Positions 1 through 24,179 of a DNA stretch of 43,386 nt are shown piece by piece. Source of the DNA: Akkermansiaceae bacterium. Lineage in GTDB: Bacteria; Verrucomicrobiota; Verrucomicrobiia; Verrucomicrobiales; Akkermansiaceae. Where the stretch lies: assembly GCA_025457625.1 (NCBI GenBank), contig JALOUA010000001.1, positions 1 to 43,386 on the forward strand, read 5' to 3'. A program made the position numbers and the translations under genes. The notes below the pieces were generated by a model. The model was not told the DNA's origin and did not search any database. It saw only the letters and a program-made list of their open reading frames with translations. Within the stretch, counting starts at the first letter, position 1; every line of letters starts with the position of its first letter.

Positions 1-1205
1 CGTCGGCGCAGAGAACCAGGCTGTGTGAATCGGCGGCGGCGATGGCCACCACCATCTTGCCGGCCAGCGCGCCACTTTGATCCACAAGCACCGGCCTGCT
101 GCGCGAGGTGGTCGTGCCGTCGCCAAGCTGGCCCTCGCTGTTTTGTCCCCATGCGGCGAGCGTGCCGTCCGAACAAAGTGCCAGGGAGTGGCGGTATCCG
201 CTGGCCACGGCGGTGATCGCCTTGCCGGCAAGCACGCCGGAGCCATCGACCATTACGGGCAGTAGTGCATTCGTGGCAGAGGCATTCCCGATCTGCCACT
301 CCTGGTTTCGACCCCAGGCGTTCAACACCGTGTCGGCCCAGTGCAAGACGAGGTCATTGCCATCGCCACCAAAGTAATTGGCCACGAAACGATATGACAC
401 GCCGTTGTGAATCAAGGTGATTGCCCGGCCATGTGGGAGATTGTCGAATTCCGCTTGGATCAGCCGGATGCCCGATTGCTCGATGACCCGCAGGTTCGTT
501 CCGTGAGCGGGTGCGTATTGGAGCGCGAACGAGGCATTCATGCCCGCACCGGAGAAGAACGGCGCGCGCATGCCGACATCGCCCGCGCTGCGGAAAACGA
601 AGGAATCCTTCACCCGCGTGACCGTGACGCGGTAATCCATCCGGCTCGCGCCACCGGCGGCCTTCACATTGATGACGATTTCGTTTTCACCCGGTGCAAG
701 AGCGATCGGTGCGCTAGGGACACCGGATGCCACCATACTGCCGTTCACTTCAATGACCGCATCCGAGTGGGCGGCCACTGGAGTCACGCGGAGGCTCGCG
801 GTGGCAGCGGAAACCACGGCGCGGTAGCTCGCGATCAGGGGTTGGAATGCAGGCTCCGTCGTCGCGCCATCGATACCCAGAGCGGCCAAGGTGGCGAGCG
901 CGCTGGTGGTGAATGTCTGGTTCTCCCCGCGCACAACCCCAAATGATCCGGTGGTCACCACGCGGAAATGATAGGTCGTACCCGGCAACAGATCCGCCAA
1001 CGCGGCGCTCACCGGTGTGGTGCCTGTCCCCTCGACCGAGGCGGGGCTGGCGGCGACTGTGAAACCGTAGCTCGTGGTCGGTCCGTATTCGAACGATAAG
1101 GTGGCGCTCTGGCCGTTGGGATTGACGCTGCCGAGCAAAACCGCGCGGTTGTCGCCCACATTACTGGCGGCGAGTGTGGTGGCGCGCGGACCAAGGGGCG
1201 AGGTA
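1..1205 (-). repeat. Module 7 of giant protein, cut by window edge
   Basis: The FN3-like, cadherin-like and GND domains are complete. Only the first part of the propeller is present, with RCC1 motifs near 167 and 3. The frame is still open at base 1, so more of the propeller, and perhaps more modules, lie outside. Confidence 0.8.
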
Positions 1206-4200
1206 ACGATCGCGAGGTTGCTTTGCGTGTACGCTCCGGTCAGCGGGCGGGTCATTTTTTCGCCGGCGAGCAGGTTTGCCATGCTGGCCGCGATGGGGGT
1301 GTTGGATTGGTCACTCGAGTTGTTGCCGAGTGCGCCGGAGCCGTTGTTGCCCCAGGCGGCGAGCGTGCCATCGTCGCACATGGCGAAGCTGCGGTAGGAT
1401 GCGGCATGGATTGACCGCACCACCTTGCCGGCCAGCACACCCGAGCGGTTCACCAGGACCGGGATGTCGCTGTTGGTGGTATTGCCGGTGCCGAGACTGC
1501 CCGCGCTGTTGTTGCCCCATGCGGCAAGGGTGCCGTCGGCGCACATGACCAAGGCGTGTTCAATGCCCGCCACAAGCGCGACAACCTGTTTGCCCGCGAG
1601 CACTCCGTCGTTGCGGATCCAGACCGGAGTGGAGCGCGAAACCTTGGTCCCGTCGCCCAACTGGCCGCCGCCATTGCCACCCCAGGACGCCACCGTGCCG
1701 TCGGAGCAAAGCGCATAACTGGAGGTATGGCCCGCGGCGACCGCAATGACCTGTTTTCCGAACAAAACGCCGGTTTGATCGACCGCCACAGGCAGCGGGC
1801 TGTTGACGGTGGTGCCATTGCCCAATTGACCGGTGGAGTTACCACCCCATGCCGCCACGGTGCCGTCGTCACACAAGGCCAGGGTGTGGCTGCCCCCAGT
1901 GGAGAAGGCGACAATCCGCTTGCCGGCCAAAGCGCCGGTCATGCTGGTGGCTACGGGGACATTGCGGTTGGTGGTGCTGCCGTCGCCAAGCTCGCCGCCG
2001 CTGTTCGATCCCCATCCGAAGACCGTGCCATCATCGCATAGTGCAAGAGTGTGGAATCGGCCCGCGCCCAAGGCTGTGACGCGCTTGCCGGCCAAGGCAC
2101 CGGTCTGCTGAACGGCTACGGGCAACAGGGAGGATGCGCTGTTGCCGGTGCCAAGCTGGCCAGCCTGGTTTCTTCCCCAGGCAAACAGGCTGCCATCGGC
2201 ACACACCGCAACACTGTGATCCTCGCCGCAGCCGCCACCGATGATGGTCCTCCCGGCCAGGGTGCCGCCGGCATCCACCGCCGTGGGCAACAGCCGGTTG
2301 GTGCTGGTTCCGTCGCCAAGCTGGCCGTAGCTGTTGGCACCCCACGCGAACAGCCGTGTGTTCGCCCATTCGAAGACGAGGTCGTTGCCACTACCACCGT
2401 AGTAATTGACGATATAGGGATAGTCGATGCCGCCATGGGCCAGATACACCGTTTGCCCCTGGGCCAGGTTGTCGAAGCGGCCCGCAATGAAACCGATGCC
2501 GGTATTTTCCAGGACCGGCAGCGAGAGACCGGAGACAGGCGCAGTGCCGAGGGAGAGTGCCGGGGGAATGCCAGCAATTGAAAATCCACCTGCGCGTATC
2601 ACGGATTGCGGAACGGCGGTGAGATTCATCGTGAGCGGCAGGCGCGTCACCGTGATCTGGTAGACACGGGTGTTCAGCGAATCCGCCGAGGTGACCGTCA
2701 CCGGGAAGGTGGTCGTGGCGGACGAAAGCGGCACAACGACATCCGGCGCCGCGGGCGTGCCTGCCACCGTCACGGATGCGGCGGCGTCCAATGCCGTGGG
2801 AGTGATGCGGATTTCCACGGCATCCGCCGGAAGCGTCACGTCGTAGCTCGACCGGGCCGGGGAAAAAGCAGGAGCAAGCGACCCGCGGTTGAGCGACAGC
2901 CCGGCGAGATCGGCCAGCCGGGTGGTGGTGAAGGTGCCGGTTTCCCCGGCCACCGATCCGTAGGGGTTTTCCACCACGATACGGTAATGATAGGTGGTGC
3001 CCGGCGATAGGCCTCCGAGGGTCGAGGAAATCCCCCCGACCGCAGTGCCGGAAATGTCAGCGGGATTCGGAATCACCAGCTTGCCCAGCTTCGGCGTGGT
3101 GCCGTATTCGAAGCGGACCGCCGCCGTGGATCCGTTGCCTGAGGCCCGGCCTTGCAGGGTGGCGGTGGTGTCGGTGATCGAGGTGGCCGCCAGGGTCTCC
3201 ACCTGCCGCGGCGGGGGCGGCATGGCGACCACGGCGAGGCCATGAGCCGCACCGATCCCCACCTCGATCACCCGCTCGCCGGGGGCGAACGCCGCGAGAT
3301 TCAGGGCGACCGGCAGGTTGCTGGCCATGCCGCTACTGAAGCCGGTGCCCCAGTGCGCCACGGTGCCGTCGCTGCAGAGCGCGACGCTGTCATTCATCCC
3401 GGCAATCATTTTCACGACTGTTTTCCCGGCAAGAACACCACTGCGGTTCACGAGGACAGGCGATGACCTGAGCACGTTGGTGCCATCGCCCAGTCGTCCA
3501 TCGTTGCGCCCCCAGGCGGCCAGGGTGCCGTCCGAACACCAGGCAAGTCCGTGGGAATCGCCGGCCGCGATGCCGACCACCGTTTTGCCGGCCAGCACGC
3601 CGCTTCGGTCCACCAGCACCGGAAGGCTGGGAGTGGCGGAAATCGTGCCATTGCCGAATTGCCCCTCATCATTGCTTCCCCAGGCCACCAGCGATCCGTC
3701 GTCGCACAGAGCCAGCGCGAAATCGTCTCCGGCGGCGGCGGAAACCACCCGCTTGCCGGCGAGCACTCCGGTATGATCGACGAGCACCGGCACCTGGCTG
3801 GCCGTGGTGTTTCCCGTGCCAAGCTGCCCGCCGTTGTTGGTGCCCCAGGCGGCCACGCGGCCGTCATCGCAGACGGCGAGGCTCAAGTTCCTGCGGACGG
3901 AGATGCCGACGACCCGGCGGCCGGCAAGCACCCCCGAGGAATTGACGGCCACCGGGCTGGCAGTGGCGTTGAACGTCGTGCCATCGCCCAACTGTCCGCT
4001 AAAGTTACTGCCCCACGCGGCAAGGCTACCGTCCGAGCACAGCACCACGCTGTGCCCGGTGCCGGCCGCCAGTGCGACCACCGTTTTGCCGGCCAGCACC
4101 CCTTCCTGATAGACGGCCACCGGTAGCGAAGAGGATTCGCTGGTGGAGACAACCGGGCCACGGCCCAGGCGGGCGCTGATCCCGTTGCCCCAGGAGGCCA

Positions 4201-7200
4201 GCGCGCCATCGGAGCAGAGCGCGAGCGAGTGGTCGTCGCCGCCGGTCATGGCGATCACGGTCTTTCCCGCCAGGATCCCGGAGCGGCTCACCGGCACGGG
4301 CACGGCGCTGTTGGTGCCGGTGGTTCCGTTGCCGAGTTGACCATAGAAATTGAATCCCCACGAGATCGGCCGGGTATGGGCCCATTGCAGCACCAGATCG
4401 TTGCCGTCGCCGCCGTGGTAATTGACGATGAAATCATAACCCACACCGTCGCGTTCAAGAGTGATGGTTTGTCCGTGTTTGAGACCGGCAAAGGTGCCCA
4501 CGATTGAAGAAGGGCCGGTGACCGTAGCGATGGTGAAATGTGTTCCAGTCGTTGGCTTGTAACCGAGCGCGATGGACAGCGGATTACCAGCGGGTGCCAG
4601 GGATTCAACCACCAGGAACGGCTGGCCGGAACCATCGAGCAGCACTTGCGACGGCAAGCGGGTGACGGTGAGCCGGTAAATGGTCGTGTTTCCACCACCG
4701 GGCGCGATGACCTCGGTTTCGATCGGGTTGTTGCCAACCACCAGCGGTTGCGGCGCGCTCGCGCTGCCGGAAGCGACCGGAACACCAGCCACGCGCACGG
4801 TGGACGCCGCCTCCTTGGCCTGCGGAGTGAGGATGATCGATTCGATGCCGGCGGGGACAACCGAATGATAGTTGAGGACCCGGGAATTGAAGGCTGGGGA
4901 GATTGTTCCATGACTCATGGAAAGTCCCGCCAACGAGGCGAAGTCGGTGGTGTTGAAGGTCAATCGCTCCCCGCGCACCGTGCCGCCGTTGCCGGTGGCG
5001 ATCACCCGGAAGTGATAAGTGGTGCCGGAGATCAATCCGTCGATCATCGCACTGACTTGCGTTTCCCCGGTGCCGCTGGCCAATCCCGGCGTGGCGGCCA
5101 CGGTCTGGCCATAGGCCGGCGTGGGACCATACTCGAAGGCAATCGTGGTATCGGTGCCGTTAGGACGCACCGCGGCCCGCAGGACCGCACGGGTGTCACT
5201 GATGTCGGTGGCCGCAAGCGTGTCGGCCTGCGCCGCGGGCGGGGAATTGACCAGCACGAGGAAGTGATTGTCTCCGGCGGCGATCGAGCCGAGGCGCTCG
5301 GACGGTTTCAATGCCGCCAGATCGACCAGTGCCGGTTCACCGAAATTAAACGATGCGTATTGCCAGTGAACCAGGGTGTTGTCGCCGCAGCGCACAAGTC
5401 GTGCGGACGGGGCGCACGCGATTTCCTCCACATTACGTCCCGACAGCACGCCGGAGGCATTCACGAGCGAGACGGAACCGGAAGAACCTGGCGAGCCGCC
5501 CCACTGCACCAGCCTGCCGTCATTGCAAAGCGCCAGACTCGAGGTGAATTTGCTGGAAAGCGCGACCGCACTGCGGCCGGAAAGCGGGCCTGTCGCGTCG
5601 AGAGGGCGAGGCGACCGAATGGGTAGCGAAAAGCTCACGAAATATCCGAGTGAGCCCGAATTATCCCGTCCCCAGGTGAACAGTGTGCCATCCGAACTAC
5701 GTGCCGAATTGAAGTCCGAGCCTGCGGAAATTTCGACCAGGGTTTTTCCATCGAGATAGCCGCCGGGCTCCACGAGACGGGGCTTCAGACTCACGGTGGA
5801 GGAAGATCCCCCGGTGTTGTCTACGTCGATGCCCCAAGTGACGAGCGACCTGTCGCTGCACAGCACGAGACTGTGGTTGGCACCGGCCGCCAGCCCGATG
5901 ATGCGTTTGCCGGCAAGCACGCCGTTTTGATCGACGCGCAACGGCACCGCGGACGAGTTGCTCCCGCCGTAGCCGAGTTGCCCGTTGACGCCAAGGCCCC
6001 AACCGACGAGCGTTCCATCGGAGCAGAGCGCCAGCGCGTGTCTGACGCCGCAAACCACCTTGACCACGGTCTTGCCTTCAAGCACGCCCTCGGTGTCCAC
6101 CCACACCGGGCGGTTGCTGTTAACCTTGCCGCCGTTGCCCAGCTGGCCCACGTCGTTGATTCCCCATGCCGCCATGCGACCGTCCACGAGCAGGGCGACA
6201 CTGAAACCGGCGCCCGCGCTGATGCTGCGGATCGCTGCACCGGCAAGCAATGCCTCCGGGTCGGTCGGTGAGGGAGTGGCCCGTGCCGCTTCAGTGCCGT
6301 CACCGAGCTGGCCGGTGGTGTTGGTGCCCCATGCGAGGATTCGCTGGTTGGCCCATTGCAAGACCAGGTCGTTGCCATCGCCGCCGAAATAGTCGGCAAC
6401 CCACTCGTAGGTCATGCCACCGAATGTCAGGTCGATCCGTTGACCTTGGGACAGATTTTCAAATGTTCCCTCAACCAGATGGTCACCGGTGTTTTTGACC
6501 AAAGTAAGCCTGGTCCCCGGTTGGGGTGCGAAGTTCAGGGCGATGGCGATCTCAAGGCCTTCCGGGGCGAAGGATTCGACGGTGACCGGCAGCGAGGAGG
6601 CGGAAGCGAAGGCAAAGCTGACCGGCAGGCGGGTCACAGTGAGGGTATAGGACAGGATGTTACCGGCACCGGCGTTCACCGCGATGGTCACGGTATTGTT
6701 GCCGGTGGTGAGGGGGAGGGTCTGGCTGGAGCTGCCCGAAGCGACCGGCGTGCCGTTGACAGTGACGGTCGCCTCTGCGCTGGCGGCCACCGGTTTGACC
6801 GTGATCGAGGTGGTGCCAGAGGCCAATGCCAGGCTGTAGCGGGTGACGCGGGGATCGAAGGCCGGACTCAGCATGCCCTCACCGGTGGCAAGGCCAGTTA
6901 GAGTGGCTAGCGTGCTGGTGGTGAAAATCTGGTCCGCACCCTTGACGGTGCCGCCGACACTGGTGGCCACCACGCGGAAGTGATAGGTGGTGCCCGGTAT
7001 CAGGCCGGTGAGGTTGGCGCTCACCGTGGCCGCAGTGGTCCCGGTGAGCACCGATGGTGTGGCCGTGACGGTGCTCCCGTAGGCAGTGGTGAGGCCGTAT
7101 TCGAAGCTTACGGTGGCGCTGCCGCCCTCGGCATCCGCACTGGCGTTGAGGGTGGCGACGCTGTCGGCGACTGCGCTGGCCGCGAGGGTGGTGACCTGCG

Positions 7201-10200
7201 GCGCGGGAGGCACGGAAACAATGGCATAACTGCTGTTGGCACCGGCGGCGGCGCCGATGATGCGCTCACCGGCTTGCAGCGAGGAAGTGTTGACCAGCAC
7301 CGGCGTCGAGCTACTGGTGGTCGAGTTGTTGCCCAGCTGGCCGTTGAAGTTATAACCCCACCCGACCATGCTGCCGTCCGAGCACCAGGCCAGGCTATGG
7401 TTGCTCCCCGCAGCAAGGCCCACCACGGTTTTTCCGGAGAGAACCCCGCTGCGGTTGACCAGCACCGGCAGGTTGCTCTGGGTGGTGCTGCCGTTGCCGA
7501 GCTGGCTGGAGCTGTTGCCACCCCAGGCGGCCAGCGTGCCGTCGGAACACAGCACCACGGTGTGGGAGCTGCCGCAGGCGATCGCGGTGACCGTCTTGCC
7601 GTTGAGCACCCCGCTGCGGTTGACCAACACCGGCGAAGTGCTGTTAAAATCGCTGCCGTTGCCCAATCGCCCGTTTTCCCCGTATCCCCACGCGGCCAAG
7701 GTGCCATCGGAACACAGGACCACTGCGTGGGAGCTGCCGCAGGCGATCGCGGTGACTGTCTTGCCGTTGAGCACCCCGCTGCGGTTGACCGGCACCGGCA
7801 CATTGCTCTGGGTGGTTCCGCCGTTGCCGAGTTGGCCGGAGCTGTTGGAGCCCCATGCCGCCAAGGTTCCGTCCGAACACAGTGCCAGCGAATAATAGGA
7901 GCCCGCCGAGATATGGGTCACGGTTTTGCCCGCCAGCGCGCCGATGCGATTCACAGCGAGCGGCACCGTGCTCTGATAGACATCGTCGTTCCCGAGTTGG
8001 CCGGAGCTGTTGGATCCCCATCCCGCCAGTGATCCGTCGGCGCACAGTGCGAGGCTGTGTTCGTAAGCTGCCGCGATCGAGATCGGCCATGATCCGGCCA
8101 ACACACCGCTGCGGCTCACTAAAACCGGCACATTGTTAGGGATCGTAGTGCTGCCCAGTTGACCCCTGTTGTTGCTGCCCCAGGATGCAAGTGTGCCGTC
8201 TGAGCAGACAAGCAAGGCATGGCTGTCGCCCTTGTCGAGCCTGAGCGGGACCTTGCCGGCCAACACGCCGTTCATGTCAACCGCCACAGGCACTTGGCGT
8301 GCGGTGGTCGTGCCGTCGCCGAGCTGCCCGCTCGCGTTGTCGCCCCACGCCAGCAACCTGCGGTTGGCCCACTGCAGCGTCAGGTCGTTACCGGTGCCGC
8401 CGAAGTAGTCGGCCACGAACGGGTAGTCGATGCCGCCGAAGCTCAAGCTCACGCGCTGGCCCTGCGCGAGGTTGTCGAAGACGCCCTCGATCGGCTGGCT
8501 GCCGGTGTTTCTAACAACCGTCAGGCTGGTGCCCACCGTCGGCGCGAAAGCGAGGCCCAGCTGGATCGTGTGGCCGCTGGCGCGGAAGACGGCCGCCGTC
8601 ACCGGCACGGTCGTCGCCGAGGAAAACGAAGCCACGGCGGGCAGGCGCGTCACGGTGACCGTGTAGGTCTTGGTGAAGGCCGCGCTTTCGGGAGTCACCA
8701 CCACGGTGAGCGTGTTGTTGCCCACAGTGAGGTTGCGCGGCGCGCTGGCGTTTCCGGAAGCGACAGCGACACCATTGACGGTGATGGTGGAAGTGGTGTT
8801 TTCGGCGACCGGCGTCACAGTGACGGTAGCGGCGGTGTTCTGCACCGAGGCGGCGTAGGTGGTGACTTCCGGTGAGAAGGCAGGCGACAGGACCCCTTCA
8901 TTCAAACTCAGGCCGGCGAGCGATGCGGACTTGCTGGTGGTAAAGGTTTGGTTCTCCCCGTAAGTGGTGCCGCCCGCGCTGGTGGCGACCACCCGGTAAT
9001 GATAGGTGGTGCCGGTGACCAGGTCGCCGAGGGTGGCGCTCACCGCGGTGGCCGTGGTTCCCGTCAGAGTGGCGGGCGCAGCGGTGACTGTGGAGCCGTA
9101 GCTGGTAGTCAGCCCGTATTGGAACGACACGCTGGTGCTCGAACCGTTGGCATTGACGGTGCCGCGCAGGGTGGCGCCGGTGTCGGTCATGCCGGTGACC
9201 GCCTGGGTGGTGGCTATCGATACCGGTGGCGAGGCCACCAACGCGAGATTGTGAGTGCCGCCGGCCACCACCGAGAGGTAACGTTCACCGCTGCGCAAAG
9301 CGCTGGTGCTGACTAAAACGGGTACTGAACTGTTGGTGAAACTGCCGTTGCCGAGGGCGCCGAAGGTTCCGTTCATACCCCAGGCTGCCAGGGTTCCGTC
9401 GGTGCACAATGCCAGCGAATGATAGTCACCCGCCGAAATCCGGGACACGGTCTTGCCCGAGAGCACACCCGTCCGACTGACCAATACCGGCAGCGTCCTC
9501 TGGCTGGTACTGCCGTTGCCCAATTGCGAGAATTGCCCGTTTCCCCATGAGGCGAGCGTGCCGTCGGAACACAACACCAGGCTGAATTCACCACCCGCTG
9601 CCAACGCGATGATTGTTTTACCCGACAAAACCCCGCTGCGATTCACCGCCACCGGTGCCGGGCGATTTGTGGTGCTGCCGTCGCCAAGCTGCCCGTAAGT
9701 GTTCTCACCCCACGCGGCCAGGGTGCCGTCCGAACACAAGGCCAAGCTGTGCCACCAACCGCACGCCACCGCAGTGATCGTCTTGCCGGCCAATGCGCCC
9801 ATGGAAACCAATGGCACCGGCACCTTGCTGTAGTTCCAGCTCTCCTCGCCGCCCCAACCGCCGAGCGTGCCGTCCGCGCCCAGTGCGAGACTCTGGTTAT
9901 TTCCCGCGGTGAGTGCCACCAGCGGGCGGTCTGCGAGCACGCCCAGCGATGCCAGTGCGGTCGGCACCAGGTTCTCTCCGCTGTTGCCACTCGCCTGTCC
10001 GGAAGTATTATCACCCCAAGCCACCAGCGCGCCGTCGGTACAGAGTGCGAGCACGTGTGCATGCTTGCTGGTCAGCAGCCTTACCTGGCGTCCGAACAAG
10101 GCACCTTCGTTATCCACCGCCACCGGCACGCTGCGCGCCCGATAATCGTTGATGCCCAGTCGGCCATCCTCGCCATTTCCCCAAGCAGCCACCCGGCCAT

Positions 10201-13200
10201 CGGCAGACAAGGCGTAGCTGGTTTTCCTGCCCGCCGCCACCGCAGTCACCGTCTTGCCGAAGAGCACTCCCGTCATGTCCACAGCGACCGGCACGTTGCT
10301 GACGTCAAGGTTGCCGCGGCCCAATTGGCCGTCGGTGTTGTAACCCCAGGCCAGCAACCGGGTGTTGACCCAGCGCAGCACCAAGTCATTGCCGGTGCCG
10401 CCGAAGTAGTCCACGACGAATCGATAGGAAATCCCTGAATGCACCAGGTTCACCTGTTGTGCTTGGGCGAGGTTGGCGAAGGTGCCGCGGATCGGCTCGA
10501 AACCCGTGTTGTTGACCAGGGTCAGGCTGGTCCCGACGCTTGGCGCGAAACTCAAGGCAAGGTTCGCGGTCAGGTCGCCCGCCGAAAAGTCGGCCGCAGT
10601 CACCGGCACGCTGCTGGCCGAGGTAAAAGTGAAGCTCGCAGGCAAACGGGTCACCGTGATCCCGTAACTGCGCGTGGTGGCACCCCCGGCGGCGGTGACC
10701 ACGACGCTGATCGTGGTATTGCCAACCGCCAGATTGACCGCCGTGCTGGCGCTGCCGGAGACCACCGTCGTGCCGTTGACGGTGACGGTGGCTCCGGCTT
10801 GGGCCACCACCGGCGTCACCAAGACGCTCGATGTCGCGTTCGATACCGTTGCCACATAGTTGGTCCGGGCCGATGTGAATGCGGGTGCCAGGCTGCCGTT
10901 GCTCAGGCTCAGGGCCGCCAAACCCGCCAAGTCGGAGGTGGTGAAGGTCTGGTTCTCGCCGGTCACCCGCCCGCCGGCGCTGGTGGCCACCACGCGGTAG
11001 TGATAAGTGGTGCCGGCCACCAAGCCGCTCAGGTTGGCGCTCACCGCAGTGGCCGAGGTGCCGCTGACGCTGGCCGGACCCGCCGGCACGGTGCTGCCGT
11101 AACGGGTGGTGAGACCGTATTCGAAACTCACCGCAGTGGTGCTGCCTTGGGCGATGACGCTGCCGTTCAATTGCGCGCCGGTGTCCTGGAGACCGCTGGC
11201 TGAGAGAGTGGTGGCAAGCGCTGCGGGCGGCAGCGCGGTCCGCGCCAGGACACTGCCCAAGCCCACGGCCGCCGTCTGAAACCGTTCGCCGGCACCCAAA
11301 CCACCCACCGCCACGGGCGCGAAGCTGTTGTTGGTGCTGCCATTTCCCAACTGGCCGTATGAGTTCCCCCCCCAACCGGCCATGCTGCCGTCGGAGCAGA
11401 GGGCATGGGTCGAATCACCTCCGCACAGAGCCGTGATGACCGTCTTGCCGCTGAGCGCACCGGTCCTGGCCGCCAGCAGGGGCACCAGGCTGCTGTTGGT
11501 GGATCCGTTGCCCAACTGACCGCTGCTGCCGAACCCCCAGGTGACTACCGAACCATCCGAGCACAACGCCACGCTATGGTAGAGGCTGAACTGATTGCTC
11601 CCGCGCGCATCGACTGCCGTCACCGAGCGGCCTGCCAGAACACCTGAACGATCCACCAAGACCGGCGCCAAGCGGTCGATGGTGGTGCCGTCGCCCAACT
11701 GCCCGCTGCCGTTATCGCCCCAAGCGGCGACGGTGCCGTCGGAACAGGCCACGAGGTTGAAACCAGAGCCCGCCGAAATCGCCACCACTGTCCTGCCCGC
11801 CAAAACGCCGGATCGGTCCACCACCACCGGCACCTTGCTGGTGGTGGTGCTGTTGTTGCCCAATGCCCCGCTCGAATTGGAACCCCAGGAAGCCAGCGTG
11901 CCGTCCGAGCATAAAACCAAATTATGCCACCTGCCTGCAGCGATCGCCACCACCGTTTTGCCGGCCAGAACGCCGCTTTGATCGACCAACACCGGCTCCG
12001 TCTTCGAAGTGCCAAGGCTCCCGCTGCTGTCGCCGAGCTGTGAACTGGTATTCGATCCCCAACTGGCCAGGGTGCCGTCGGCACACAGGACCAGGCTGTG
12101 GGTCTGGCCCGCCGAGATCGCGATCACCGTCTTGCCCGCGAGCACGCCGTTCTGGCGCACGGCAACTGGCACCTGGGATTTGGCAGTGGAACCGTTGCCC
12201 AACTGGCCGGAGGAGCCGTTGCCCCATGCCGCCAGCGTGCCGTCGCTGCACAGAGCCAGCGCGTGGCGTTCGCCGAGGCTCACGCGCGTCACCGTCTTGC
12301 CCGCCAAGACCCCGTCCGCCACCACCGGCACCGGCAGACTCCGCGGCGAGTACGTGCCGTCGCCGAGCACGGATTCAGAATTGTAGCCCCAAGCCAGCAG
12401 CCGCCCGTTGGCCCATTCAAGCACCAGATCATTGCCGCTGCCGCCGTAGTAGTTCGCCACAAACGGATATAGGATCCCGTTGAACGCCAGATCCACCTGC
12501 TGTCCCTGTGCCAGATTGTCAAAAGTCCCCTGAATCAGGTCCGTCCCGGTGTTGTTCACCACGGTGAGATTTGTCCCGGTCGGCGGCGCGAAGTTCAGCG
12601 CCAGGTTCACCGTGCCCGTCGGCTGATAGTTCGCGGCGGTGACTGGCACGGTGGTGGCGGAATTGAAGGTGGCGGCGACTACCGTTCCGCGCGTGACCTC
12701 GATCGTGTAGGTCAGACGGTTGACTCCATCCGCCGCAAGCACCGCAACGGACACGAGGTTGGGACCTTCCGCCAGGGCGATCGGCCCACTCGCGGTGCCC
12801 GAAGCCACCGGCACGCCGTTGACTGTTGCCGAGGCCCCGGCATGCAAAGTGGTGGGGGTGACCGCGATGGCAGAGGTGGCAGAGGGAACGCTCGCCGAAT
12901 AGCGGATTGTCGCCGGCGCGAATGCCGGGCTGAGCGGGATGCTGCCAAGCGACAGGTCTTTCAGCGTCGCCAGTGACGTCGTCGTGAAGGTCTGGTCCTC
13001 GCCGACCACCTGGCCGCCGGCGGTTTCCGCGACCACCCGGTAATGCCAGGTGCTGTCGGCGGGCAGCCCCGTCAGATCCGCGCTGACTGCCGAGGCAGTT
13101 GAGCCGGAAACCGTGGCCGGAGTGGCGGTCACCGTGCTGCCATAGGCGCTTGTCGGCCCATAAGAGAAAGACACGCTGGCCGTTTGGCCAAGTGGATTGA

Positions 13201-13876
13201 CCGTGCCATTGAGCGTGGCACCCGTCTGGGTCAACGAGGAGGCCGCATCCGTCGTCACGATGGGAGGATTTGTGGGTAGTGCCGTCAGCCGGACGCGGTC
13301 GAAGTGCGAGCGGCCGCCACCACCAGCCTGCAGCAGGATGCGGATGGTCTTGCCGCTGGCTGGCGAACTTTCGCCGGTTTCAAACACCAGTGCCGGGGCA
13401 TCTATGAACGTCCCCACCGGGACCGTCGAGGCGTTGAGGGTGCCGGTGGCGAAGACCGTGCCGTCGCTGGCCGCGAGCAGGTATCGGCTCTGGTTGGTGG
13501 CGAGGGTCGAGGTGCTGTCGCGGTTGCCAACCGCCACGGTGAGCGTGTAGCGGGTGGAATCCTGATAAGTGACGCCCAGATCCTGCCACACGTTGTGGTT
13601 GAGGTTCATGACCAGATGGTTCTGGCCATCGGCGGCGAAGCCGTTGACCCGTTCGAACCAGCCATTGCCATTGGACGTGCCGCCGGTTTCCAGCCACGGC
13701 GTGAGCGTGGTGGTCAAACCGGCCACGGCCAGGCTGCGGCTGTCGAACGACGCGTCCCCGATGGTTACCGGATTGGCCGTGGCCGTGCGCGCGAACGCGG
13801 CCAGCAGGCACAACAGGAAAAGGAAAAACGGCGCAACAGATAAGCGCGCCCGCGCAACGATGATTCGGGAACTCAT
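1..13876 (-). CDS. Giant secreted modular RCC1-propeller surface protein, 3' end outside window
   Basis: The frame starts at ATG 13876-13874 and stays open to the left edge, giving at least 4,625 codons with no stop. I confirmed the same frame at the CSDGT-type motif in each of modules 1 to 6 and at the window edge. Residues 1-34 form a signal peptide with a long hydrophobic core ending in ATA. Residues ~35-195 look like a galactose-binding-type beta-sandwich. Seven modules of about 670 residues follow, each with an FN3-like domain, a cadherin-like beta-sandwich (PF12733 type), an ~80-residue beta domain ending GG(S/D)GND(L)VL, and RCC1 repeats with CSDGTLAAWG and GQLGNG motifs. At least 38 canonical RCC1 units are visible. 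RCC1 propellers usually bind other macromolecules, so adhesion or a surface scaffold is likely, but the partner is unknown. No sorting signal can be seen because the C-terminus lies outside. No Shine-Dalgarno motif precedes the ATG. Confidence 0.9.
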   Translation of the reverse strand, partial: MSSRIIVARARLSVAPFFLFLLCLLAAFARTATANPVTIGDASFDSRSLAVAGLTTTLTPWLETGGTSNGNGWFERVNGFAADGQNHLVMNLNHNVWQDLGVTYQDSTRYTLTVAVGNRDSTSTLATNQSRYLLAASDGTVFATGTLNASTVPVGTFIDAPALVFETGESSPASGKTIRILLQAGGGGRSHFDRVRLTALPTNPPIVTTDAASSLTQTGATLNGTVNPLGQTASVSFSYGPTSAYGSTVTATPATVSGSTASAVSADLTGLPADSTWHYRVVAETAGGQVVGEDQTFTTTSLATLKDLSLGSIPLSPAFAPATIRYSASVPSATSAIAVTPTTLHAGASATVNGVPVASGTASGPIALAEGPNLVSVAVLAADGVNRLTYTIEVTRGTVVAATFNSATTVPVTAANYQPTGTVNLALNFAPPTGTNLTVVNNTGTDLIQGTFDNLAQGQQVDLAFNGILYPFVANYYGGSGNDLVLEWANGRLLAWGYNSESVLGDGTYSPRSLPVPVVADGVLAGKTVTRVSLGERHALALCSDGTLAAWGNGSSGQLGNGSTAKSQVPVAVRQNGVLAGKTVIAISAGQTHSLVLCADGTLASWGSNTSSQLGDSSGSLGTSKTEPVLVDQSGVLAGKTVVAIAAGRWHNLVLCSDGTLASWGSNSSGALGNNSTTTSKVPVVVDRSGVLAGRTVVAISAGSGFNLVACSDGTVAAWGDNGSGQLGDGTTIDRLAPVLVDRSGVLAGRSVTAVDARGSNQFSLYHSVALCSDGSVVTWGFGSSGQLGNGSTNSSLVPLLAARTGALSGKTVITALCGGDSTHALCSDGSMAGWGGNSYGQLGNGSTNNSFAPVAVGGLGAGERFQTAAVGLGSVLARTALPPAALATTLSASGLQDTGAQLNGSVIAQGSTTAVSFEYGLTTRYGSTVPAGPASVSGTSATAVSANLSGLVAGTTYHYRVVATSAGGRVTGENQTFTTSDLAGLAALSLSNGSLAPAFTSARTNYVATVSNATSSVLVTPVVAQAGATVTVNGTTVVSGSASTAVNLAVGNTTISVVVTAAGGATTRSYGITVTRLPASFTFTSASSVPVTAADFSAGDLTANLALSFAPSVGTSLTLVNNTGFEPIRGTFANLAQAQQVNLVHSGISYRFVVDYFGGTGNDLVLRWVNTRLLAWGYNTDGQLGRGNLDVSNVPVAVDMTGVLFGKTVTAVAAGRKTSYALSADGRVAAWGNGEDGRLGINDYRARSVPVAVDNEGALFGRQVRLLTSKHAHVLALCTDGALVAWGDNTSGQASGNSGENLVPTALASLGVLADRPLVALTAGNNQSLALGADGTLGGWGGEESWNYSKVPVPLVSMGALAGKTITAVACGWWHSLALCSDGTLAAWGENTYGQLGDGSTTNRPAPVAVNRSGVLSGKTIIALAAGGEFSLVLCSDGTLASWGNGQFSQLGNGSTSQRTLPVLVSRTGVLSGKTVSRISAGDYHSLALCTDGTLAAWGMNGTFGALGNGSFTNSSVPVLVSTSALRSGERYLSVVAGGTHNLALVASPPVSIATTQAVTGMTDTGATLRGTVNANGSSTSVSFQYGLTTSYGSTVTAAPATLTGTTATAVSATLGDLVTGTTYHYRVVATSAGGTTYGENQTFTTSKSASLAGLSLNEGVLSPAFSPEVTTYAASVQNTAATVTVTPVAENTTSTITVNGVAVASGNASAPRNLTVGNNTLTVVVTPESAAFTKTYTVTVTRLPAVASFSSATTVPVTAAVFRASGHTIQLGLAFAPTVGTSLTVVRNTGSQPIEGVFDNLAQGQRVSLSFGGIDYPFVADYFGGTGNDLTLQWANRRLLAWGDNASGQLGDGTTTARQVPVAVDMNGVLAGKVPLRLDKGDSHALLVCSDGTLASWGSNNRGQLGSTTIPNNVPVLVSRSGVLAGSWPISIAAAYEHSLALCADGSLAGWGSNSSGQLGNDDVYQSTVPLAVNRIGALAGKTVTHISAGSYYSLALCSDGTLAAWGSNSSGQLGNGGTTQSNVPVPVNRSGVLNGKTVTAIACGSSHAVVLCSDGTLAAWGYGENGRLGNGSDFNSTSPVLVNRSGVLNGKTVTAIACGSSHTVVLCSDGTLAAWGGNSSSQLGNGSTTQSNLPVLVNRSGVLSGKTVVGLAAGSNHSLAWCSDGSMVGWGYNFNGQLGNNSTTSSSTPVLVNTSSLQAGERIIGAAAGANSSYAIVSVPPAPQVTTLAASAVADSVATLNASADAEGGSATVSFEYGLTTAYGSTVTATPSVLTGTTAATVSANLTGLIPGTTYHFRVVATSVGGTVKGADQIFTTSTLATLTGLATGEGMLSPAFDPRVTRYSLALASGTTSITVKPVAASAEATVTVNGTPVASGSSSQTLPLTTGNNTVTIAVNAGAGNILSYTLTVTRLPVSFAFASASSLPVTVESFAPEGLEIAIALNFAPQPGTRLTLVKNTGDHLVEGTFENLSQGQRIDLTFGGMTYEWVADYFGGDGNDLVLQWANQRILAWGTNTTGQLGDGTEAARATPSPTDPEALLAGAAIRSISAGAGFSVALLVDGRMAAWGINDVGQLGNGGKVNSNRPVWVDTEGVLEGKTVVKVVCGVRHALALCSDGTLVGWGLGVNGQLGYGGSNSSAVPLRVDQNGVLAGKRIIGLAAGANHSLVLCSDRSLVTWGIDVDNTGGSSSTVSLKPRLVEPGGYLDGKTLVEISAGSDFNSARSSDGTLFTWGRDNSGSLGYFVSFSLPIRSPRPLDATGPLSGRSAVALSSKFTSSLALCNDGRLVQWGGSPGSSGSVSLVNASGVLSGRNVEEIACAPSARLVRCGDNTLVHWQYASFNFGEPALVDLAALKPSERLGSIAAGDNHFLVLVNSPPAAQADTLAATDISDTRAVLRAAVRPNGTDTTIAFEYGPTPAYGQTVAATPGLASGTGETQVSAMIDGLISGTTYHFRVIATGNGGTVRGERLTFNTTDFASLAGLSMSHGTISPAFNSRVLNYHSVVPAGIESIILTPQAKEAASTVRVAGVPVASGSASAPQPLVVGNNPIETEVIAPGGGNTTIYRLTVTRLPSQVLLDGSGQPFLVVESLAPAGNPLSIALGYKPTTGTHFTIATVTGPSSIVGTFAGLKHGQTITLERDGVGYDFIVNYHGGDGNDLVLQWAHTRPISWGFNFYGQLGNGTTGTNSAVPVPVSRSGILAGKTVIAMTGGDDHSLALCSDGALASWGNGISARLGRGPVVSTSESSSLPVAVYQEGVLAGKTVVALAAGTGHSVVLCSDGSLAAWGSNFSGQLGDGTTFNATASPVAVNSSGVLAGRRVVGISVRRNLSLAVCDDGRVAAWGTNNGGQLGTGNTTASQVPVLVDHTGVLAGKRVVSAAAGDDFALALCDDGSLVAWGSNDEGQFGNGTISATPSLPVLVDRSGVLAGKTVVGIAAGDSHGLAWCSDGTLAAWGRNDGRLGDGTNVLRSSPVLVNRSGVLAGKTVVKMIAGMNDSVALCSDGTVAHWGTGFSSGMASNLPVALNLAAFAPGERVIEVGIGAAHGLAVVAMPPPPRQVETLAATSITDTTATLQGRASGNGSTAAVRFEYGTTPKLGKLVIPNPADISGTAVGGISSTLGGLSPGTTYHYRIVVENPYGSVAGETGTFTTTRLADLAGLSLNRGSLAPAFSPARSSYDVTLPADAVEIRITPTALDAAASVTVAGTPAAPDVVVPLSSATTTFPVTVTSADSLNTRVYQITVTRLPLTMNLTAVPQSVIRAGGFSIAGIPPALSLGTAPVSGLSLPVLENTGIGFIAGRFDNLAQGQTVYLAHGGIDYPYIVNYYGGSGNDLVFEWANTRLFAWGANSYGQLGDGTSTNRLLPTAVDAGGTLAGRTIIGGGCGEDHSVAVCADGSLFAWGRNQAGQLGTGNSASSLLPVAVQQTGALAGKRVTALGAGRFHTLALCDDGTVFGWGSNSGGELGDGSTTNRNVPVATSMTGALAGKRIVAFSTGGSHTLALCDDGTVAAWGGNSTGQLGNGTTVNSPLPVAVDQTGVLFGKQVIAVAAGHTSSYALCSDGTVASWGGNGGGQLGDGTKVSRSTPVWIRNDGVLAGKQVVALVAGIEHALVMCADGTLAAWGNNSAGSLGTGNTTNSDIPVLVNRSGVLAGKVVRSIHAASYRSFAMCDDGTLAAWGNNGSGALGNNSSDQSNTPIAASMANLLAGEKMTRPLTGAYTQSNLAIVTSPLGPRATTLAASNVGDNRAVLLGSVNPNGQSATLSFEYGPTTSYGFTVAASPASVEGTGTTPVSAALADLLPGTTYHFRVVTTGSFGVVRGENQTFTTSALATLAALGIDGATTEPAFQPLIASYRAVVSAATASLRVTPVAAHSDAVIEVNGSMVASGVPSAPIALAPGENEIVINVKAAGGASRMDYRVTVTRVKDSFVFRSAGDVGMRAPFFSGAGMNASFALQYAPAHGTNLRVIEQSGIRLIQAEFDNLPHGRAITLIHNGVSYRFVANYFGGDGNDLVLHWADTVLNAWGRNQEWQIGNASATNALLPVMVDGSGVLAGKAITAVASGYRHSLALCSDGTLAAWGQNSEGQLGDGTTTSRSRPVLVDQSGALAGKMVVAIAAADSHSLVLCAD
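1206..3225 (-). repeat. Module 6 of giant protein
   Basis: Same domain order. RCC1 motifs lie near 2192, 2028, 1860, 1694, 1531 and 1368. The GND domain ends near 2358 and runs directly into the first WG strand of the propeller, as in every other module. Confidence 0.8.
3226..5250 (-). repeat. Module 5 of giant protein
   Basis: Same domain order. RCC1 motifs lie near 4207, 4030, 3862, 3696, 3528 and 3364. The FN3 motif is altered here (GERLTFNTT near 4951). The closing half-unit ends with a GAAHGLAVV-like strand just before the next FN3 domain. Confidence 0.8.
5251..7215 (-). repeat. Module 4 of giant protein, most degenerate propeller
   Basis: Same domain order, but the shortest copy (about 1,965 bp). 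RCC1 motifs lie near 6180, 6017, 5850, 5686, 5515 and 5385. The last two units are eroded: one reads CNDGRLVQWGG and the next reads LVHWQYA, losing the WG pair and the GQLG turn. Confidence 0.75.
7216..9235 (-). repeat. Module 3 of giant protein
   Basis: Same domain order. RCC1 motifs lie near 8199, 8034, 7871, 7702, 7540 and 7374. Two neighbouring RCC1 units (7562-7625 and 7727-7790) are almost identical at DNA level, which suggests recent duplication or gene conversion inside this module. Confidence 0.8.
9236..11240 (-). repeat. Module 2 of giant protein
   Basis: Same domain order as module 1. The ENQTFTT motif of the FN3 part is near 10939, about 2,040 bp from its counterpart in module 1. 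Six dG-type RCC1 motifs lie near 10198, 10031, 9868, 9728, 9560 and 9394. The unit near 9868 is shortened and reads GADG instead of CSDG. Confidence 0.8.
11241..13283 (-). repeat. Module 1 of giant protein (FN3-cadherin-like-GND-RCC1 propeller)
   Basis: This is the first ~2.04 kb repeat unit. Protein order: FN3-like domain about 13283-12975, cadherin-like sandwich about 12970-12690, GND domain about 12655-12400, then seven WG-containing RCC1 strands with CSDG or CADG motifs near 12239, 12077, 11909, 11737, 11552 and 11390. Boundaries are approximate and were set by the recurring FN3 start. Confidence 0.8.
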
Positions 13877-14037
13877 GTCGTTCAAATTTGTTGCGTAAAT
13901 TCACAAACATAAGGCCTGCAACTCAAGCCAAATCGAAGTTATATTTGACCTGATTCCGGGGTTTGGGATTGACGCGAACTCACATGAACGATTGCATCCC
14001 TTGAAATCCCGTCGAAACCGGATGATTTCCCCCAGCC
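13877..14037. promoter_or_regulatory. Divergent intergenic region between giant gene and autotransporter
   Basis: These 161 bases separate two divergent secreted-protein genes and must hold both promoters. The stretch near 13935-13955 (gttatatttgacc) is clearly more AT-rich than its surroundings and is the best candidate core promoter region. I cannot assign -35 and -10 boxes with confidence. Neither start codon has a recognisable Shine-Dalgarno sequence. Confidence 0.4.
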
Positions 14038-16569
14038 ATGAAAGCAAGAACCCCGCATCTTTCCGTTTCCTTGATAGCATGGACATCCGGAATGATGGTG
14101 TTCAGCGCAATCGCCGGCCATTTGCAGGCGGCGGACTTGTATTGGAATCCCGGCGGGACCGGTGGCGACGGTGTCTGGGGAACGGGTCCGGGCGATAAAA
14201 ACTGGAACCTGGTCTCCGGCGCTCCGGCAGGCAACACCGCCTGGCAGGACGGCATCGACGATGTGGCGGTTTTCCAGGACGCGACCGGCGGCATCGTCAC
14301 GGTTTTCGACAGCGTGCAAACCGCCGGCATCAAACAGAACGGAGCGAACTACAGCATCAACGCCGGAAGCATCGTGCTGGCCCCGGATTCCGCGTTGAAT
14401 GCGCCGTTTGTGAATGTGCAAAGCGGCATTCTAACAATCGACGCGCCACTCGCCGGCAATGCCGGCATGGTCAAAACCGGCGGCGGCACCCTGCTCTTGT
14501 CCGTCGCGAATCCCTACACCGGCACCACCGCCATCCAGGGCGGCAGCCTCAACCTCGCGGGTTCCCTGGCGAGCACCAGCCTCTCGATCTCGTCCGGCGC
14601 CAGCCTGCTGAACCAAAACGGCGGACTCTCCAACAGCGCCACCCTCACCAACGCCGGAACGCTTACACTGACGGTGAACGACACTGTCGCGAGTTATCTC
14701 TCCAACGCCGGCACGCTCACCAATGGCGCGGGCACGCTTTTCACCACCAGCACCAACCTCAACGACGGCTCGACCATCGCCGGCCTGCTCGACACCGATG
14801 TGCTCACCAGTGAGGGCTCCGTGCAGGTCAGCGGCACGGTTGCCGCAAATAACATCAACATCAACACAGGCACGCTGACCAACACCGGCACGCTTGGCAA
14901 TGTATCAACTCAGCTCAACATCGGCGGTGGGGCGGCCCTGGCCGCCGGCGGACTCCAGCCATACTCCCTGCTCACCACCAGCGGAGCCGGTCCCGGCACC
15001 TGGCAGGGTGATTTGGTCAACACCACCACCGTCGCGCCCGGCGGCGTGGGAGCCAGCGGCATTCTGGCGGTGGCTGGAAACTTCAGCCAGTCGCCGGGCG
15101 GCACGCTCACGCTGGATCTATCCGCGATGGCGAGTGATCGGCTCGACATCACCGGCATTGCCACATTCGACGGCACGCTGGAGTTGAATCAAGCGGGCGC
15201 GGCCATCGCTCCCTTCGTGCCGGTGACGGTGGTGTCAGCCGGTGGTTATGCCGGAAACATCACCTCGTTGAGCGAAAACCTTGATGGCGCGGTTTTGTTC
15301 AATCCCGGCAATGGCACGGTGACCCGCCTCGGTCTTCCACCGGGCGGCGGCGGATCCTTCTTCGGAGCCACGCGCAACCAGACCTCCACCTGGATATCGT
15401 TGTATGATGATGTGATCGATCCCGGCATCCCCAACATCACATCCGGCCCCGGCGGATATGAGATCACCAGCGGCATCGCGGATGTGGGCAATCCGGATCT
15501 GTTATGGGCGCTGGCGGCGAGTTTCACGCCCGCCGGTTTGAACGCGGCTTTGCTCAACCGGCTTTCACCGGAAGTCTATGGCGGTTTTTCGGACTATGCC
15601 ATGCAGGCCACCCGCGCGCACCAGCGCTCGGCGCTTTCCGCTCCGCCGCTCGAACCAAGGGATGGCGCGAAGAGCGGGGCGAAAGGTGGCATCGCGGATG
15701 CGCGCACCCCGCTCGATTGGGAGTTCTTCGCCGCGGTGGATTACTTCCGCGCGGGCACCGAAAACTCGCGCAACCTGGCCGACTACGATTTCGAGGGCAC
15801 GGGCGTGCTGGCGGGCACGCGCACGATGCTGCGCGAGCACACACAACTCGCCGTTTATTTCGGTGTCGATGATGGAACGATTGATGGGGAACTGATCGAT
15901 GCCGACGCGTTCGGCTGGAACCTCGGCTTGATCGGCGGGCACCTGTTGCATGAGAAAAGCCGGACCCGCCTCAGCGCGGGCATTTCATACGGGAGTTATG
16001 CATTTGACGGCAGCCGCGGCAGTGCGTCGGCCACCGCCGGAGGGTGGTCTCCCGGTCGGGTGAACTTCGACGACGGGGACGTCGATGCCTTCGATCTATT
16101 CGTGGGCGTGGATGGCGTGGCATGGCAGAAGGATGAATTGACGCTGATTCCGTCCGCCGGCTTGCGCTATGCGGCGAGCACGATGGATTCGTTCAGCGAA
16201 ACGACCGGCGGCGCGCCGGGCGCGCCGATCGCGCTGGATGTCGGTCGCGACCGCCATGAGTCGCTGCTGCTTGAGTTCGGCCTGCTGGCGCGGGTGGAAG
16301 TGAATGACCAACTCGCGCTGTGGGGCGAGAGCGGGGTGAACATCGGCCTGCTCGACGACGGGCGCGTGATGTCCGCCAGCTTCGCCACTGGCAGCCGCGC
16401 GATGCGTGCGGAGGCCGCCGGCCTGGATGACGACTCGCTGTATCTCGGGTTTGGCGCGGTCTATCAGATCACCGGAGACATCCGCGCCGGCGTCGGCTAT
16501 CGCGCGGATCTCCGATCGGGGGCCGATGCGCAGCAGGAGCTGCGGCTTTCGTCATCGTGGCGGTTCTGA
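14038..16569 (+). CDS. Autotransporter with passenger beta-strand repeat and C-terminal beta-barrel
   Basis: This 843-residue protein has an N-terminal signal peptide (about residues 1-31, cleavage after HLQA). Its passenger contains an autotransporter-associated beta-strand repeat around residues 145-180 (KTGGGTLLLS, then NPYTGTT and GGSLNLAG). After a linker with an LSPEVYGGFSDYA stretch, residues ~570-843 form a typical autotransporter beta-domain with alternating hydrophobic strands, and the chain ends in W-R-F, the terminal aromatic residue expected for Bam-dependent insertion. It should therefore sit in the outer membrane and display a short, glycine- and threonine-rich passenger. It is divergent from the giant RCC1 gene and may share regulation. 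The ligand is unknown. The ATG at 14038 gives the best signal peptide. Confidence 0.9.
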   Translation: MKARTPHLSVSLIAWTSGMMVFSAIAGHLQAADLYWNPGGTGGDGVWGTGPGDKNWNLVSGAPAGNTAWQDGIDDVAVFQDATGGIVTVFDSVQTAGIKQNGANYSINAGSIVLAPDSALNAPFVNVQSGILTIDAPLAGNAGMVKTGGGTLLLSVANPYTGTTAIQGGSLNLAGSLASTSLSISSGASLLNQNGGLSNSATLTNAGTLTLTVNDTVASYLSNAGTLTNGAGTLFTTSTNLNDGSTIAGLLDTDVLTSEGSVQVSGTVAANNININTGTLTNTGTLGNVSTQLNIGGGAALAAGGLQPYSLLTTSGAGPGTWQGDLVNTTTVAPGGVGASGILAVAGNFSQSPGGTLTLDLSAMASDRLDITGIATFDGTLELNQAGAAIAPFVPVTVVSAGGYAGNITSLSENLDGAVLFNPGNGTVTRLGLPPGGGGSFFGATRNQTSTWISLYDDVIDPGIPNITSGPGGYEITSGIADVGNPDLLWALAASFTPAGLNAALLNRLSPEVYGGFSDYAMQATRAHQRSALSAPPLEPRDGAKSGAKGGIADARTPLDWEFFAAVDYFRAGTENSRNLADYDFEGTGVLAGTRTMLREHTQLAVYFGVDDGTIDGELIDADAFGWNLGLIGGHLLHEKSRTRLSAGISYGSYAFDGSRGSASATAGGWSPGRVNFDDGDVDAFDLFVGVDGVAWQKDELTLIPSAGLRYAASTMDSFSETTGGAPGAPIALDVGRDRHESLLLEFGLLARVEVNDQLALWGESGVNIGLLDDGRVMSASFATGSRAMRAEAAGLDDDSLYLGFGAVYQITGDIRAGVGYRADLRSGADAQQELRLSSSWRF

Positions 16570-23978: not shown

Positions 23979-24179
23979 GGTCGTGCGAATGAGGTAAGGG
24001 TGATGGGTTTCCGGAACTCCGCCTGCGCGAGGCGTGCCGGGCGGGTGGCACTGAAGCAGAGGATTGCCCCGCACACAAGCGGGCAGATCCGCTCTTCTTC
24101 GGTGTTTTGTTTGCCCCAAACATGCGTCCTCAGGGGAAAAATCCAAAAAGCAGCTTGAAAATCAGCATTTCCCAAGCTA
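23979..24179. promoter_or_regulatory. Divergent intergenic region upstream of LOG gene and secreted protein gene
   Basis: About 200 bases lie between two divergent starts, and promoters for both must lie here. The stretch 24120-24165 is A-rich (aaaaatccaaaaagcagc), unlike the GC-rich flanks. I see no clear operator or sigma-70 motif. Confidence 0.3.

Follow-up and report, generated by a model that had tools for sequence, protein, structure and literature searches.

What kind of protein is encoded by a gene that runs for 13.9 kb without a stop codon and is interrupted only by the end of its contig, and what might it do for its host, a lake-dwelling relative of Akkermansia? The stretch of DNA analysed here (the window, 43,386 nucleotides) makes up the whole of contig C278 in a draft Akkermansiaceae genome (G000; 3.77 Mb, 406 contigs, 82.75% complete), so the giant gene is cut by the contig and not by the limits of the window. 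With confidence slightly better than even, we favour a reading in which its product is exported and forms a very long fibre for multivalent binding, partnered by an autotransporter; where the fibre is located, what it binds, and how it is exported are matters that we infer.

A giant gene cut by the end of its contig

The giant propeller-chain gene occupies positions 2 to 13876 of the minus strand, as 4,625 codons in a frame without a stop that breaks off with the contig at base 1; the open reading frame itself extends from 13885 to 2 and reaches 4,628 residues when counted from a TTG at 13885, three codons upstream of the ATG at 13876. From that ATG, the incomplete product has 4,625 residues and a mass of 465 kDa. 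The initial annotation had described a minus-strand frame open over the full 13.9 kb and leaving the window, and this was correct, the ATG falling exactly at the end coordinate that it gave. Extending the contig leftwards, which it had also proposed, leads to the contig end at base 1, and no other contig carrying the rest of the gene was found. Outside C278, PF00415 matched contig C305 alone in this genome, and C323 encodes a different protein of FN3/cadherin/protease-like composition. Two further contig ends, one encoding a signal peptide and a GND domain at an N-terminal end (G000:C224:5068-5432) and the other a terminal-propeller tail and C-terminal domain (G000:C350:3471-3980), probably mark the opposite ends of a second such gene in the genome; they were not assigned to the gene in the window because the nearest homologue of its N terminus, a protein of 5,947 aa in G117, has a different end. 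Close to its contig end, C350 is frameshifted where a short stretch is duplicated in tandem.

Read by eye from the translation, the first 34 residues (13775 to 13876, minus strand) likely form a signal peptide, with a hydrophobic core and an AxA-type site (RTATA followed by NPVT). An HpiC1-like N-terminal beta-sandwich domain follows at residues 39 to 201 (13283 to 13771, minus strand; PF22825, Pfam E=2.9e-13), homologues of which lie at the N termini of other large proteins in the genus.

Modules of three spacers and one seven-bladed propeller

The remainder of the protein consists of seven modules of ~670 residues, all encoded on the minus strand. Modules 1 (11219 to 13261), 2 (9218 to 11218), 3 (7199 to 9217), 4 (5231 to 7198), 5 (3206 to 5230), and 6 (1187 to 3205) are complete, whereas module 7 (2 to 1186) meets the contig end after two propeller blades. 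The motifs at the FN3 ends lie at 13003, 10960, 8959, 6940, 4972, 2947, and 928, and their spacings of 681, 667, 673, 656, 675, and 673 residues (1.97 to 2.04 kb) agree with the period of about 2.0 kb that was originally noted. Pfam, a blade profile, AlphaFold2, and Foldseek together bear out the claim that each period, as in module 1, comprises FN3, cadherin-like, GND, and RCC1 propeller parts, but the chain of at least seven propellers initially described needs amending: there are seven modules and six complete propellers, the seventh having two blades only.

Pfam matched the giant protein to the RCC1-like domain at E=0, to RCC1 in 31 stretches, and to Cadherin-like PF12733 in 7 stretches, in addition to FN3-type and HpiC1-like matches. 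Scores of 958 bits for PF00415 (curated threshold 21.7) and 1,382 bits for PF25390 (curated threshold 150), together with seven four-strand blades in a closed ring, place it in the RCC1-like propeller superfamily. The FN3-like label holds by predicted fold and is weak in Pfam, where PF00041 passes by whole-protein score only. The GND domain had no match in Pfam, no catalytic domain was found in the array with Pfam, and the giant had no match in NCBIfam.

Module 3 was folded with AlphaFold2 from an alignment of 76 modules from the window and its relatives (mean pLDDT 95.3, pTM 0.86), and the model resolves into the four domains that the initial annotation had named: an FN3-type sandwich (residues 1 to 95; 8933 to 9217), a cadherin-like sandwich (97 to 192; 8642 to 8929), a beta-rich GND domain (193 to 285; 8363 to 8641), and a seven-bladed propeller (286 to 668; 7214 to 8362). 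Foldseek matched this module to RLD2 of HERC2 (TM 0.93 on the target, 30% identity) and also to UVR8, RCC1, and RPGR. In the model, the first propeller strand (286 to 292, the WG strand) should complete the blade of strands 636 to 668, so that the chain would enter and leave the propeller within one blade. Since its first and last strands would share that blade, each propeller should be suspended like a bead, leaving its loop-rich face free, and we infer that the propellers are side beads on a spacer chain, in which three beta-rich spacers (FN3, cadherin-like, and GND) would carry one RCC1 propeller per unit, repeated serially.

Could this period instead be an artefact of assembly, or the frame a disused one? 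The genome is a draft, contigs break in such genes, and the frameshift in C350 affects what is probably the end of another such gene. However, the modules are only 38 to 56% identical pairwise in register (44 to 62% of residues differ), far too low for an assembly duplicate; there is no stop in 4,625 codons; modules 4 to 6 have collinear orthologues in another genome (G110); and dN/dS lies below 0.4 in relatives. An assembly chimera or a decayed gene is therefore very improbable, and chance is excluded by the same in-register identity and by homologues in open frames of many genomes.

The cysteines of the giant are placed with some regularity: 33 of the 42 occupy one fixed place, the C-x-D ending a blade strand (window positions 2 to 13876, all propellers), and in relatives 89% of 513 blades have this cysteine. 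Having about one cysteine in every blade is unusual among exported proteins and counts against explaining the giant as an exported binder.

Relatives and the sizes of their arrays

Among 260 genomes of the family, some match to the modules was found in 129 and full modules in about 15. The named relatives are metagenome-assembled genomes of Akkermansiaceae and Verrucomicrobiaceae and one of Chthoniobacteraceae, largely from lakes and ponds as judged by isolate names. Where 388 genomes sampled from the phylum gave long matches beyond the family, these were partial. Four scattered matches in viral contigs are probably bacterial DNA, phages yielded only part of one propeller (31 to 32% identical, in Synechococcus phages), and plasmid matches covered the propeller only.

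Complete relatives have a signal peptide (identified by reading), a GND-propeller unit, a variable number of FN3-cadherin-GND-propeller modules, and a C-terminal domain. The largest array, in G150, has 13 propellers, the last one cut, in 8,362 residues with the frame still open; G151, G117, and G157 have 11 propellers each, G086 has 10, and G131 has 9. The propeller-chain design first recognised in the window is thus more general than was initially described. Exactly seven blades were scored with the profile in 102 of 105 complete propellers, the exceptions being module 4 of the window, in which the seventh blade is degenerate and the profile scores six, the first propeller of G157, and the last of G250. 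In G117, four propeller-chain genes (1,553, 5,947, 7,355, and 2,635 aa) lie on one strand of a 72-kb stretch (C17:43139-115126) that runs up to the autotransporter gene. One module in G151 (C268:1825-24996) has lost the propeller, its FN3-cadherin-GND running directly into the next FN3, and the array of G147 (C385:34816-51000) includes a 1,494-residue stretch without recognised domains.

Ordered arrays with a distinct last propeller

The arrays of G157 and G117 match module by module, with 57 to 81% identity on the diagonal, 43 to 55% off it, and one position unmatched. The array of G148 extends this diagonal, and dN/dS is 0.2 to 0.35 for most of these orthologous modules. Modules 4, 5, and 6 of the window are orthologues of modules 1, 2, and 3 of G110:C319 (56, 60, and 60% identity, versus 47% or less elsewhere), so three modules were either gained here or lost in G110. 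The nearest homologue of the giant's N terminus, at 66% identity in G117, shows no collinearity with the array in the window. A tree of GND-propeller units places the last propellers of nine arrays together in a single clade of mostly short branches (support 0.99), apart from the internal propellers. Collinearity, change by whole modules, and the separate terminal-propeller clade all point to arrays in which differentiated beads follow a set order and end in a special one, rather than to homogenised repeats. Since some species share the same order, each bead is apparently maintained in its own right.

These results bear on whether the giant might be mainly structural, a length-setting element such as a stalk or surface-layer mesh in which the propellers are rigid spacers with no particular ligand. 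The high pTM of the four-domain module does suggest a stiff unit, and module number changes by whole units. Nevertheless, a uniform spacer needs neither ordered, individually conserved modules nor a special last propeller, and the variability of the modules is concentrated in the face loops; we consider this explanation unlikely.

Variable positions within the blade

Across 513 blades, a scaffold of WG, G-Q-LG, P, GVLAGK, and C-x-D is conserved, and positions 8, 10, and 11 (WGxNxxG) and 46 to 47 (AGxxH) are among the most variable, with an entropy of 3.1 to 3.5 bits. Between collinear orthologues, 67 to 76% of residues differ at the variable positions, where dN/dS is 0.43 to 0.65 compared with 0.20 to 0.22 in the remaining blade. 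AGxxH aligned with the GWRH of UVR8, which lies on the UVR8 dimer face. This pattern fits diversifying binding faces, and relaxed constraint may explain the loops too; positive selection on the face loops was not detected, dN/dS being below 1. If the giant is a multivalent binding fibre, faces that vary from bead to bead on a kept scaffold could provide many different or graded weak contacts with glycans, particles, or other cells.

A conserved autotransporter neighbour

Separated from the giant gene by a divergent intergenic region of 161 bp (13877 to 14037, from the gene coordinates), a plus-strand gene at 14038 to 16569 encodes 843 residues with a signal peptide, a PATR passenger (Pfam E=9.1e-7), a PF03797 barrel (E=1.9e-17), and a final F. 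With its C-terminal barrel, passenger, and terminal aromatic residue, the product is a classical autotransporter (type Va). An orthologue adjoins a giant-type gene in 11 of 13 readable loci, those of the window and 10 further genomes: the pair is divergent in the window, G117:C17, G157, G147, G137, G124, and G150, lies on the same strand with the autotransporter upstream in G151, G085, and G095, and is tail to tail in G086. Neighbours counted as giant-type include short relatives with one or two propellers in G124 and G085 and, in G095, a contig carrying FN3-cadherin-GND only. The orthologues at G117:C34, where both flanks were read, and at G130:C117, where the flanks read were short, have no giant beside them, and three loci with a missing 5' flank (G153:C307, G148:C181, and G110:C31) were left out of the 13. 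Of the 260 genomes, 37 have a strong module match, and these include all 15 in which the orthologue is present (hypergeometric p about 1e-14, uncorrected for kinship).

Because adjacency is kept despite changed orientation, gene order argues for a functional link between giant and autotransporter, and the usual adjacency suggests a two-gene system displaying many binding heads outside the cell. As to the presumed nature of this link, the autotransporter would most likely serve the same structure, as an outer-membrane anchor, an assembly site, or a co-displayed surface protein. Alternatively, the giant could be a freely secreted binder or inhibitor in which many propellers raise avidity, with the autotransporter merely a co-regulated neighbour. 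The signal peptide and the relatives, in which no anchor was seen, accord with free secretion, for which BLIP-II of soil bacteria, a secreted RCC1-like binder, is a precedent (PMC9218822), but the autotransporter linkage is conserved across orientations and such length would presumably be costly for a released protein. We therefore give free secretion a low probability.

The C-terminal domain and the export route

The last ~120 residues of the relatives are predicted to form a short helix and a beta-sandwich, with a core pLDDT above 90; this domain had no match in Pfam or NCBIfam and, by fold, none in the PDB below E 0.001. A profile of this domain, which closes many large proteins, found 30 copies in the host genome of the giant (for example, G000:C107:15344-15661 and C350:3471-3701) and 130 in G117 (E 0.01 or better), and of 289 genomes sampled from the phylum, 83 have at least one copy (E 1e-6); where the DNA was read, the domain mostly ended 1 to 7 residues before the stop. 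It is a candidate general sorting or attachment domain of Verrucomicrobiota, and most relatives finish with the special last propeller followed by this domain, which would probably be a common export or surface-attachment tail. In the window itself, the last residues encoded at 24159 to 25757 (plus strand; no Pfam match) weakly match the profile (E 1e-4). Two large exported-looking genes on the minus strand encode Ig-like HYDIN/ASH repeats with a GND domain (37591 to 40314) and FG-GAP repeats with an Ig-like domain (41615 to 43360).

Known export routes were sought in the available sequence of the giant, whose own C terminus is missing, and in the C termini of relatives. A PF03797 barrel was found in neither, and the relatives' C termini scanned contained no RTX nonapeptides or type I signal, membrane anchor, or PEP-CTERM-type tail; their final element is a beta-strand of the FMRLKV or FYRL type, without a hydrophobic helix or NCBIfam sorting signal. 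Regarding two-partner secretion, the partner carries PF03797 and PATR only, with no POTRA, and the giant had no TPS-domain match. SprA of T9SS gave no match in 7 genomes, where the control likewise gave none, and no NCBIfam sorting domain was found. Secretins, at 3 or more per genome, do not tell which system exports the giant. Since the protein is apparently exported, a known RCC1-family activity such as nucleotide exchange is not expected.

The presumed cell-surface fibre envisaged by the initial annotation is backed by the signal peptide, the relatives' C-terminal domain, and the autotransporter linkage, though no anchor was seen in relatives; that annotation did not include the autotransporter partner, the distinct terminal propeller, or the differentiation and collinearity of the modules. 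A more specific proposal, which we advance tentatively and regard as rather doubtful, is that giant and autotransporter constitute a new two-gene surface system in which the barrel or passenger anchors the propeller chain of several hundred kilodaltons or helps to export it and the C-terminal domain is a docking tag, also present on dozens of other large Verrucomicrobiota proteins.

Relation to known systems

To our knowledge, RCC1 propellers otherwise occur singly or a few per protein. The parts and fold of the giant were already known; no description of the serial-propeller architecture was found in the literature searched, in which, as far as we searched, its ordered conservation and autotransporter partner are likewise undescribed. 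The arrays amount to a natural collection of diversified propeller faces built on a single scaffold and provide a testable model of the attachment of lake Verrucomicrobiota to algae, particles, or each other, and the linked autotransporter and phylum-wide C-terminal domain make the export and holding of giant proteins directly testable.

With RCC1, UVR8, the RLDs of HERC1/HERC2, and BLIP-II, the giant shares the seven-bladed fold, blade motif, and ring closure, but it repeats the bead in a chain (six complete, up to 12 to 13 in relatives) and has an apparent signal peptide, and nothing in it suggests a nuclear or GTPase role. A Hepatoplasmataceae protein likewise joins a propeller to Ig-like folds within a single bacterial chain, yet has a single propeller with slight RCC1 similarity in 991 residues and no serial array (PMC10928387). 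As in TpsA/TpsB systems, the gene for a large exported protein adjoins one for an outer-membrane beta-barrel, although the barrel protein here is not a POTRA/FhaC-type TpsB but a complete PF03797 autotransporter that has a passenger of its own. Finally, the giant resembles SiiE, LapA, and MpAFP, giant tandem-domain adhesins of Gram-negatives (PMC6272769, PMC4083281), in its thousands of residues of repeated beta-sandwich extenders and presumed surface display. It differs from them in the lack of RTX-type matches in its array or the relatives' C termini read, in the unrelated C-terminal domain of its relatives, and in a repeat unit that carries a propeller.
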